This document shows, one piece after another, positions 51,181 through 53,406 of a stretch of DNA of 64,000 nucleotides. Source of the DNA: Notoacmeibacter marinus (GTDB lineage: Bacteria > Pseudomonadota > Alphaproteobacteria > Rhizobiales > Rhizobiaceae); the NCBI RefSeq assembly GCF_002238045.1, contig NZ_NBYO01000003.1:496001-560000 (forward strand), written 5' to 3'. The notes beneath the pieces were generated by a model. The model was given only the letters and a program-made list of their open reading frames with translations. It was not told the origin of the DNA and did not search any database. The translations under genes were made by a program, and so were the position numbers. Within the stretch, counting starts at the first letter, position 1, and each line of letters starts with the position of its first letter.

Positions 51181-51830
51181 ATCATCACCTCCACCAATGG
51201 CACGCTCGGCACCTCGCCGGCGCGAAATCCAGAAAGGCTTGTCGCCAGATGTTCGATGTCGAAACGCACGGCGATGTCGAAGATGAAGCCAGCACTCACC
51301 GGTGCGCCATCTGCAGGCGGGACGTTGAAGACCACGTCACCCGTCTCGTAATCGAAACCGAAAGCCGTATCCGCGACGGATTGTGCATTGACTGCAACCA
51401 CCACCGTGTCGTTGCGCGGCAACCGGATCGGTCGTGCATAACCACCGTCCCCGCCATAGGTCTTCACGAGCGGAAATCGCGTTGCCGATCCGTCTCCCAT
51501 GCCAAGCGGCTGGTCGGCCGCGCCGATGGCTTGGCTGCGAGGGCTGCTTCGATGATCCAGGGGATCGCGAAAGCGGAACGGATGCATCGCGCCGCCGCGC
51601 GCTTCGAAGAATGCGATCAGCGTTTCCAGATCGGCCAGATCGCGCAGGCCGGTTCCGACATCGAAACGGCGAAGGCTGTGGCGACGACGCTGGTTGCGCG
51701 CTTCGCGCCCGCTGCGTAGCGGAAGAATCTCCACCTGCCGCTCGGGCCCGCCGGTCGCACCAAGGCCGATCGCGATGGGAAACAGCGCGTCATGGAAGCC
51801 GGGTAGCGGAAAGGCATCGCGATCAGACAT
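51177..51830 (-). CDS. GTA g12 distal tail protein (DUF2460)
   Basis: A 217-residue protein of the DUF2460/TIGR02217 family. It shows FHDALFPIAIGLGATGGPERQVEILPLRSGREARNQRR near the start and LIAFFEARGGAMHPFRFRDPLDHRS (about residues 71-95). The homologue forms the distal tail ring joining the tube to the baseplate. It overlaps g13 by four bases and g11 by eight. Confidence 0.93.
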   Translation of the reverse strand: MSDRDAFPLPGFHDALFPIAIGLGATGGPERQVEILPLRSGREARNQRRRHSLRRFDVGTGLRDLADLETLIAFFEARGGAMHPFRFRDPLDHRSSPRSQAIGAADQPLGMGDGSATRFPLVKTYGGDGGYARPIRLPRNDTVVVAVNAQSVADTAFGFDYETGDVVFNVPPADGAPVSAGFIFDIAVRFDIEHLATSLSGFRAGEVPSVPLVEVMI

Positions 51831-52368
51831 GGCGCGTGCCCTTTCGGACCGCTCGCGACAGCATGGCCGTCATCTGCGCTTCCGACTTGCGGAACGAGGC
51901 GGCGTCGCTGGCCTGGACGTTGAAAGTGACGTTGATAGCGCCGCCGCCCTGACCGCCCGCCACGCCGAGCTTGCCATCGCTGCCTCTGCGGAGCGGCATG
52001 ATCGCTTCCGGTCCGGCTTCGCCCATCAGACCGAGCCCACCGGCGAGCGGAAACATCGTCGCGCCATTGACGATACCGCCATTGGCGTTTGGCGTAACCG
52101 GCACGCCGCCTCCACCGAAAAAGCGGCTGAAGAGCCCTCCGACCAGCCCCTGAAGCGGTTGCAGCCCTTTCTGCAAGGACGATCTGGCCAGATCCATCGC
52201 CAGGCTTCGAAGCACATCCTCGAAAGACTTGCCTTCGACGATCGCGCCGGCGAAGGCGGATGTCATTCGCTGACCGAACTGATCGGCCAGCCCCTGAAGC
52301 TCCTTAAGGGCCGTTGCCACCCCGGTGGTGTCGGCGTCGATGCTGACTTCAACCCGCTTTTCCATCAT
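51823..52368 (-). CDS. GTA g11 tail tape-measure-like protein
   Basis: A 181-residue protein with MEKRVEVSIDADTTGVATALKELQGLADQFGQRM, a central glycine-rich hydrophobic stretch (LVGGLFSRFFGGGGVPVTPNANGGIVNGATMFPLAGGLGLMGEAGPE) and the terminal AINVTFNVQASDAASFRKSEAQM, typical of GTA/lambda-type tape measure C-termini. At under 200 residues it would set a short tail. The ATG at 52368 overlaps the stop of the upstream chaperone frame (ATGA), so translation is coupled to it. Confidence 0.9.
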   Translation of the reverse strand: MMEKRVEVSIDADTTGVATALKELQGLADQFGQRMTSAFAGAIVEGKSFEDVLRSLAMDLARSSLQKGLQPLQGLVGGLFSRFFGGGGVPVTPNANGGIVNGATMFPLAGGLGLMGEAGPEAIMPLRRGSDGKLGVAGGQGGGAINVTFNVQASDAASFRKSEAQMTAMLSRAVRKGTRHV

Positions 52369-52586
52369 CGTTTCTCCGTTTCGTCGCCCTTGCGGAAGGT
52401 CTGTTCCAGCGCGGCCAACCATTGCCGCGTCGGACCTGCATCGTCCGCCCCTGTCCGTCCCATCGCTGCCGCCAGTTCGCGCGGCGTCATCGCCCAGAAC
52501 TCACGCGGCGGCAGATGAAGGACACCCAGTCCGATCCGCATGGCGTGCGCCCAGGGAAAGCCCTTCGGTCGCGAGCCCTTTACGGT
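52365..52586 (-). CDS. Tail assembly chaperone frame (g10.1-like), probably read by -1 frameshift from g10
   Basis: This frame encodes the phage tail assembly chaperone pattern FPWAHAMRIGLGVLHLPPREFWAMTPRELAAAM. No ATG, GTG or TTG precedes the conserved FPW part for more than 50 codons; the first usable ATG (52541) lies inside the motif and has no ribosome-binding site. The frame is in -1 relation to g10, and the heptamer GGGGAAA ends six bases before the g10 stop. This is like the lambda G/GT arrangement, where a slip makes a fused chaperone. The given start marks the first codon after the proposed slip. If initiation occurs at 52541, the product has 58 residues. Confidence 0.7.
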   Translation of the reverse strand, partial: TVKGSRPKGFPWAHAMRIGLGVLHLPPREFWAMTPRELAAAMGRTGADDAGPTRQWLAALEQTFRKGDETEKR

Positions 52587-52996
52587 TTCCCCGGTATCGT
52601 GATCGTCGGGTGCGGCGCGCTGGCTTCGCCGAAAGGGCCGGTTTCGTCGTGGCCCTCCGCTCGGCTCTGCGTTTGCGTCTCGTGGCCGAAGGTCGCCATC
52701 AACAATCGGACAACGATCCTGGCAAAGCCGGCGATGCCGTTCTCGCAACGCATGGCCGCCACCGCCTCTTCATCCGCATCCGAATCGCCGCCGCCCCGCA
52801 GCCCTGCCGCGATGATCGTCATGAAGTCCGAGGCCGAGAGACGGCCTTCCGACAAGCGTGCCGCCAGTTCGGAAAGGCCATCGACACCGAAGGCCGTTTC
52901 CAGTTCGGCGAGCGAGCCGAGCGTGAGGCAGAGCCGGCGCGACTCGCCGTCGAGAATGGCGACGATCTCGCCACGCTGTTCGTTGGCCGCCACCAT
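52580..52996 (-). CDS. GTA g10 protein (tail assembly, GTA-specific family)
   Basis: A 138-residue protein that begins with EQRGEIVAILDGESRRLCLTLGSLAELETAFGVDGLSELAARL, the GTA g10 family pattern of an N-terminal beta-hairpin followed by a helix in ALAELE style, and has a hydrophilic tail. Homologues lie between the major tail protein and the tape measure and probably act as tail chaperones. It overlaps g9 by one base (TGATG). Its 3' end carries the putative frameshift site. Confidence 0.88.
   Translation of the reverse strand: MVAANEQRGEIVAILDGESRRLCLTLGSLAELETAFGVDGLSELAARLSEGRLSASDFMTIIAAGLRGGGDSDADEEAVAAMRCENGIAGFARIVVRLLMATFGHETQTQSRAEGHDETGPFGEASAPHPTITIPGKP
52586..52592 (-). promoter_or_regulatory. 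Candidate -1 frameshift site GGGGAAA at the end of g10
   Basis: The last g10 codons are GGG AAA CCG before TAA. A slip of one base back after AAA would let the GGG-bound tRNA re-pair perfectly and continue into the chaperone frame, adding about 73 residues to g10. The A-site re-pairing (AAA to GAA) has one mismatch, so it is not a canonical heptamer. Confidence 0.45.
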
Positions 52997-53406
52997 CAGG
53001 TGGCCTCGAATGTCAGTGCGGCCGCGCTTTCGAACGCGATCTCGAACGTGACTTCGCCATCATGATTGCCGGAATATTCCAGAGATGTGATCTGAAAAGC
53101 GCCTTCGAGCGCGCCGAAATCCGGCATGGCGAATTGCAGTTCCATCGCGGCGCCATTGAAAAAGGCTTCGCGGACCAGCGCGTCGGACTGCGCGTCGCGA
53201 AAGATGCCCTGACCGGAAATAGAGGCCTGGCGCACACCCGCATCGGACAACAGGTGCCGCCAGCGACCCGCGCTATCGCTATCGGTGATATCCACTGTCC
53301 CGTTGCCCAGTGCGAGGCGCCGGGTCTTCAGACCCGCCAATGTCGACCATCCGCCGACCCCATCCGCGACGCGGATGAGCATATCCCGTCCTCTTTGCGC
53401 GCTCAT
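52996..53406 (-). CDS. GTA g9 major tail tube protein
   Basis: A 136-residue protein of the phage major tail family TIGR02126. It starts MSAQRGRDMLIRV and contains GLKTRRLALGNGTVDITDSDSAGRWRHLLSDAG, AGVRQASISGQGIFRD and FQITSLEYSGNHDGEVTFEIAFESAAALTF. It forms the hexameric rings of the GTA tail tube. AGGAGA lies six bases before the ATG. A 93-bp gap without a gene separates it from g8. Confidence 0.94.
   Translation of the reverse strand: MSAQRGRDMLIRVADGVGGWSTLAGLKTRRLALGNGTVDITDSDSAGRWRHLLSDAGVRQASISGQGIFRDAQSDALVREAFFNGAAMELQFAMPDFGALEGAFQITSLEYSGNHDGEVTFEIAFESAAALTFEAT

Follow-up and report, generated by a model that had tools for sequence, protein, structure and literature searches.

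The slippery heptamer from which phage lambda makes its long tail chaperone gpGT, besides gpG, is GGGAAAG, and the type case of bacterial -1 frameshifting stimulated by a Shine-Dalgarno (SD) sequence is dnaX. The lambda heptamer stands near the end of the first of two open reading frames that lie between the genes of the major tail protein and the tape measure protein, the second of which is in the -1 frame and has no start codon, and gpG and gpGT occur at a molar ratio of 30:1 (PMC5009743, whose available part describes G/GT and leaves gene transfer agents, GTAs, unmentioned). Other cases include 6-7% frameshifting in two genes of an HK97-like phage chaperone cluster (PMC3711429, GTAs unmentioned), a chaperone frameshift in most of the R. 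capsulatus phages described in the available part of PMC8601537, a -2 shift in phage 9g (PMC4276943) and a +1 shift proposed in a Wolbachia hydrolase (available part of PMC10299305).

For the GTAs themselves, which are domesticated viruses that package host DNA, no paper describing a frameshift in g10/g10.1 was found in the PMC literature searched. The papers found, in their available parts, present g10.1 of RcGTA as a short separate gene or leave it unmentioned, with no frameshift described, and the available part of PMC9765227 mentions it only for its length of under 300 nt. Likewise, the available parts of PMC8718954, PMC10127595 and PMC10299305 describe no frameshift for GTA g10, that of PMC10885494 does not mention GTAs, and no word beginning with "frameshift" or "chaperone" occurs in the main text of PMC7296036, PMC9632790, PMC11841831 or PMC11150451.

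Here, we analysed a stretch of 64,000 nucleotides of Notoacmeibacter marinus DNA (hereafter the window), in which g10 and the chaperone open reading frame downstream of it very probably (we put it at about 0.87) make up a single unit of programmed -1 frameshifting in an RcGTA-type GTA. A preliminary description of this DNA had proposed a -1 shift from g10 giving a short and a long chaperone as in lambda; comparative sequence evidence strongly supports that proposal, with another slip site than the one first suggested. The kind of recoding predicted here is known (lambda G/GT) and the setting, a GTA, is new.

Results

The g10 region belongs to a GTA-like tail gene cluster

The minus strand carries, in this order, a terminase-like open reading frame, portal, HK97 capsid, g9, g10, g10.1, g11, distal tail protein and baseplate hub, and the family members found in GTA order on that one strand are portal, HK97 capsid, g9, g10, TIGR02216, RcGTA_tape, TIGR02217 and TIGR02218. 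The locus is likened to g10/g10.1 of RcGTA, which we take to be rcc01692/rcc01693, by its gene order and by profile matches to the same families (TIGR02216 rcc01693, the RcGTA-type tape measure, the Rcc01695-family distal tail protein and the GTA baseplate hub). The neighbouring GTA genes examined match their families over the full length, and the cluster is read as an RcGTA-type gene transfer agent.

Table 1. Features of the g10/g10.1 region; positions are counted from the first nucleotide of the window.
Feature	Position	Strand	Basis
g9, major tail protein	52996..53406	-	PF06199 E 1.9e-40; TIGR02126; ordinary start, SD at 5 nt
g10, lambda-G-like tail assembly protein (Phage_TAC_11), 138 aa, 0 frame	52580..52996	-	PF11836 E 7.3e-27
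Chaperone open frame	52769 to 52365	-	134 codons from stop to stop, -1 relative to g10
GGAGGG, candidate internal SD-like stimulator	52653..52658	-	15 nt upstream of the heptamer; -10.0 kcal/mol
Slippery heptamer C CCT TTC, predicted -1 frameshift site	52631..52637	-	no other X XXY YYZ heptamer of the 187-nt overlap is in register; kept in L063/L032
Predicted -1 frame extension: 24-aa linker + chaperone domain (g10.1)	52365..52631	-	fusion with g10 = 210 aa
GGGGAAA, slip site first suggested	52586..52592	-	out of register, not conserved
Phage_TAC_6 / rcc01693-family domain (FPW...FWAMTPRE)	52395..52559	-	PF09550 E 9.4e-16, 60.3 bits; TIGR02216 56.2 bits (cut-off 56.1)
g11, short tape measure protein	51823..52368	-	NF058675 RcGTA_tape 140.9 bits (cut-off 220); PHROG tape measure families

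The genes are tightly joined, the g9 stop being overlapped by the g10 ATG and the chaperone stop by the g11 ATG, which has an SD at 4 nt. An ordinary start is present in g9, g10 and g11 and is absent only from the chaperone between g10 and g11. As in lambda, the g10 and chaperone pair is placed between the genes of the major tail protein and the tape measure protein. The latter is only 181 aa long, with an RcGTA_tape score under the family cut-off.

PF11836 is named Phage_TAC_11, yet it is described as a GTA-gp10 tail tube protein, and in PHROG g10 matches tail or tail tube families, whereas nothing there matches the chaperone. That g10 would be a chaperone rather than a tail tube protein is argued from its position and from the frameshift pairing. 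Neither g10 nor the chaperone gave a lambda sequence match (PHROG, and PDB searched by sequence). The PDB sequence search returned nothing for g10 at E up to 1 and, for the chaperone, solely a chain named HeliScrew4 (E 0.12), while Rfam gave no match across 52200-53100. Among annotated phage records, 2 match the chaperone and 4 match g10.

The chaperone has no usable start of its own

The positions of the open reading frames confirm that the frame of the chaperone is -1 with respect to g10, and a fusion of the two, first estimated at about 210 residues, is computed at exactly 210 aa whatever the slip point in the overlap. It had also been claimed that no ATG, GTG or TTG precedes the chaperone motif. 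This does not hold to the letter, since a TTG occurs at 52748, but it is the sole ATG, GTG or TTG upstream of FPW in this frame and it lies deep inside g10, 189 nt ahead of 52559, where the Pfam domain begins. Among the near-cognate codons CTG, ATT, ATC and ATA, only ATT 52706 is found upstream of FPW, again deep inside g10, and scanning of the chaperone frame from 52706 to FPW revealed no start or near-cognate codon. Non-standard start codons were thus rejected as the chaperone start, TTG 52748 and ATT 52706 being the only candidates before FPW and both lying within g10. The lack of a usable start is therefore confirmed.

A slippery heptamer lies downstream of a strong SD-like sequence

In the 0 frame, the predicted slip site reads GGC CCT TTC GGC, encoding the PF of ...DETGPFGEAS..., and no start codon occurs between it and FPW. 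For the window locus taken alone, shuffling of codons produced a top-ranked in-register heptamer in 6% of cases and any heptamer in 39%. According to the available part of PMC4066793, all-pyrimidine motifs and UUY codons in the A site are favourable, as in C_CC.U_UU.C.

Of the 398 7-mers scored in g10, the one at the GGAGGG stretch upstream of the heptamer pairs most strongly with the anti-SD. Such an upstream SD-like sequence is shared with the dnaX type, and its distance of 15 nt falls within the 6-17 nt before the motif in which SD-like sequences were searched for in PMC4066793 (available part). The locus differs from that type in its product, a tail chaperone gene pair instead of a polymerase subunit, and no downstream hairpin was detected in it. 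A downstream stem-loop was considered as a stimulator and rejected: five stretches were folded, and the four with downstream sequence were no better than shuffles (z of +0.42, +1.13 and +0.73 for the window and +0.45 for the relative L063, folded pseudoknot-free). We do not treat the missing structure as defining, because prokaryotic sites do not always have one (PMC4066793, available part). Overall, the window locus differs from lambda, whose heptamer is GGGAAAG, in its CCCTTTC, in the strong SD ahead of it and in the lack of a clear structure downstream, and it belongs to a domesticated GTA, not to a phage.

A relative of the same genus places the predicted slip site

We compared the window locus with that of its closest relative, Notoacmeibacter sp. 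MSK16QG-6 (locus L063), whose junction is identical to that of L032 in another genome of the genus (G298). L063 shares the missing chaperone start and the frame relation to g10. Its g10 ends in GGC CCT TTC GAC TAA, the -1 frame is closed 16 nt before this TAA, and no ATG, GTG or TTG occurs before FPW; a slip would therefore be confined to the 16-nt stretch that holds CCCTTTC. The heptamer stands 78 nt from FPW in both loci, whereas its start is 55 nt from the g10 stop in the window locus and 10 nt in L063. Moreover, the strongest SD in g10 of L063/L032 (-9.3 kcal/mol) lies upstream of the heptamer at the corresponding position. Identity between the two loci amounts to 10/12 nt at the slip site, 6/11 just upstream, 32/69 downstream as far as FPW and 59/72 in the chaperone domain, counted from its first base; conservation of the 24-aa linker between slip site and domain is poor.

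The GGGGAAA first taken as the slip site is indeed present two codons before the g10 stop (TAA), and slippage there could be imagined, since the sequence is at that place and a glycine tRNA in the P site could re-pair GGG to GGG. The A-site AAA, however, must re-pair to GAA: in the g10 frame the sequence reads CCG GGG AAA and therefore does not fit the X XXY YYZ pattern. The GGGAAAC embedded in it, the only other heptamer of the overlap, has the wrong register. Moreover, GGGGAAA is absent from L063, and the strong SD is located upstream of CCCTTTC, while its distance from GGGGAAA is not that of a frameshift stimulator. GGGGAAA, which is unconserved and whose register does not suit tandem slippage, was rejected, and slippage at this point is extremely unlikely; CCCTTTC, 45 nt upstream, fits. 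Judged on these sequences, the same-genus relative decides between the two sites in favour of CCCTTTC. With the slip site moved, the predicted junction peptide changes as well, from ...IPGK-TVKGS... to ...DETGPF-RRSQRAA....

Start classes in the family

For a wider comparison, 252 loci were taken, made up of the best-scoring search matches and 80 further regions in list order, which is not a random sample, and some of which may be prophages rather than GTAs. A g10-chaperone pair was obtained in 249 of them (L164, L167 and L172 gave none), and 232 distinct loci were left once identical junctions had been removed. Relative to g10, 214 of these have the chaperone in the -1 frame, 12 in the +1 frame and 6 in the 0 frame. 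By our own cut-offs (a start at most 12 nt from the g10 stop, or at most 60 nt upstream of FPW), no start is present in 90 of the 214 loci in the -1 frame vs. 0 of the 18 in other frames. The 12 loci in the +1 frame (including L007, L051, L059 and L126) always have a start, which indicates that the frame relation between g10 and chaperone is not fixed by history. The -1 frame is open across the g10 stop in all 90 no-start loci.

In the other -1-frame loci, starts no more than 12 nt from the g10 stop are common (37 ATG, 26 GTG and 53 TTG of 214). Such NTGA overlaps at the corresponding place favour a reading in which the N. marinus chaperone is made without any fusion, by re-initiation or coupling at the g10 stop, where GTA 52583 is preceded at 4 nt by a weakly pairing SD-like sequence (-5.7 kcal/mol), or from the internal ATG 52541 after FPW. 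To our knowledge, though, GTA is not a start codon, and a start at ATG 52541, where an SD is next to absent (-2.4), would cost the protein its FPW, a motif kept by 77 of the 90 no-start loci. In the same-genus relative, moreover, the g10 stop lies 68 nt before the chaperone domain and no ATG, GTG or TTG is found upstream of FPW. We consider either route very improbable for the window locus.

A second way to do without recoding would be that the chaperone is a decaying, unexpressed gene that has lost its start, or that the frame break is an assembly error. Among the three genomes of the genus searched, the third (G297) gave no match to g10 or the chaperone, which speaks for such decay and suggests that the GTA tail region is missing or lost there. 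The domain of the window locus, on the other hand, is intact, as its Pfam score (60.3 bits) and its identity to the relative indicate, the 90 loci show the same startless arrangement in the -1 frame, and the neighbouring GTA genes are full-length family matches. Decay or misassembly is thus very improbable, and programmed frameshifting at CCCTTTC stays our preferred reading.

Heptamers accompany the missing starts

In-register heptamers were searched within 150 nt before the g10 stop, with expectations from codon shuffles. They were found in 77 of the 90 no-start loci (28.9 expected), the two wrong registers giving 10 and 7. All 8 loci with a start elsewhere within 60 nt have one (2.4 expected), as do 36 of the 53 loci with TTG at the g10 stop (11.8 expected) and 9 of the 26 with GTG (4.7 expected), vs. 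2 of the 37 with ATG (4.7 expected). When only heptamers with a top-ranked E. coli A-site tetramer (A_AAG, U_UUY or C_CCY, ranking from the available part of PMC4066793) were counted, 61/90 no-start loci had one in register, vs. 0 and 3 in the two wrong registers. Even where there is room of at most 45 nt, 9 of 11 no-start loci have a heptamer (2.5 expected). The 13 no-start loci with no in-register heptamer within the 150 nt searched are L014, L021, L038, L047, L075, L101, L127, L141, L158, L175, L199, L207 and L250; several of them have C CCC or C CCT runs, which might permit single-tRNA slippage.

The survey thus agrees with the expectation of missing starts and a slippery site in other GTA loci. 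Relatives with a clear chaperone start and SD, which had been named as evidence against a frameshift, also exist, namely the 37 ATG loci, whose SD profile is strongest 4 nt before the ATG, i.e. at initiation spacing. As they almost lack the heptamer, they point to a different mode in other lineages and do not refute the shift in the window locus.

We also scored SD-like sequences in 213 of the 214 loci, one being too near a contig end. A stretch of at most -8.5 kcal/mol lies 6-25 nt upstream of the heptamer in 37 of the 44 no-start CCCTTTC-type (CCCTTT) loci vs. 86 of 880 positions taken from these genes as controls, and the mean profile of the CCCTTT loci is strongest about 13-16 nt before the heptamer. 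CCCTTT sites carry their SD at frameshift spacing, not at initiation spacing. The signal is weaker in AAACCC loci (19/53 vs. 96/1060 control positions).

Under phylogenetic control (tree of 231 of the 232 distinct loci), the association of heptamer and missing start is weaker: it has the right direction and is not significant. Comparison of no-start with ATG or other-frame loci gave 6 supported independent pairs (mean 4.8 for and 0.0 against, median p 0.0625), the off-register control gave p 1, and comparison with all start classes pooled gave 12 pairs with a median p of 0.219.

Several kinds of site occur in the family

Four kinds of junction can be distinguished. Kind (i) has CCCTTTN before or within the FPW coding sequence; many of these loci (e.g., L083, a Hyphomicrobium MAG, and L119) have no start at all, and the TTT at which the slip would occur encodes the F of FPW. 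Kind (ii), found in Brucella, Rhizobium, Aurantimonas and others, has AAACCCY directly before the g10 stop, with a TTGA overlapping the stop. The heptamer is kept in loci that lack this TTG, which have TTAA (L079, L097, L046 and L053), CTGA (L091) or CTAG (L043) instead; where the TTG is intact, either mode could operate, start and slip being indistinguishable from sequence alone. Kind (iii) has GGGAAAG directly before the g10 stop, e.g., in L189, L200, L215 and L223 (genomes of one genus group), and this is the heptamer of lambda. Kind (iv), in several Devosia, Pelagibacterium and others, lacks a heptamer and has an ATGA overlap preceded by an SD at initiation spacing.

At the g10 stop, AAACCCTTGA is strikingly conserved in L076, L086, L088, L092, L106, L108 and others, from Brucella, Rhizobium, Aurantimonas and relatives, and is followed by a conserved GCCGCAG-like stretch.

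On the tree, 20 changes occur between no-start and ATG or other-frame loci. One joint reading, to which we give even odds, is that across the Hyphomicrobiales and the other Alphaproteobacteria sampled, the GTA tail chaperone repeatedly switched between two modes, translation from an NTGA start coupled to the g10 stop and -1 frameshifting with SD stimulation at CCCTTTN, AAACCCY or GGGAAAG, that the F codon of FPW itself became the slip site in some lineages, and that the TTG of the large AAACCCT-TGA group is a by-product of the slip site and not a start. Since many relatives would make their chaperone from ordinary-looking coupled starts, the fusion is probably not obligatory in every lineage. 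This family-wide alternation of expression modes appears to be undescribed in the literature searched.

Discussion

The case for a frameshift in the window locus is made by the conjunction of the missing start, the register of the heptamer, the spacing of the SD, the same-genus relative and the contrast within the family. We infer the following course. Most ribosomes would read g10 to its TAA and give the short chaperone of 138 aa. In a minority, GGAGGG would pair with the anti-SD of the 16S rRNA, and these ribosomes would pause with CCT in the P site and TTC in the A site, slip back by one base onto CCC TTT, and read on in the -1 frame to give the 210-aa g10-chaperone fusion. The ratio of short to long product would be set by the slip efficiency. 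By analogy with lambda gpG/gpGT, the g10 part may coat the tape measure protein, encoded by the next gene, and the extension may recruit the major tail protein, encoded by the previous one.

GTAs have been maintained by their hosts for a very long time, and our results indicate that in many lineages they keep the lambda-style control of the chaperone ratio by slippage. This would explain the frequent lack of a credible start for g10.1, a gene that annotation pipelines have likely missed or mis-started. As relatives differ in their mode of expression, the family offers a natural comparison by which to ask whether tail building requires the second chaperone to be fused or free. If the joint reading is true, a domesticated virus keeps, loses and regains lambda-style recoding.
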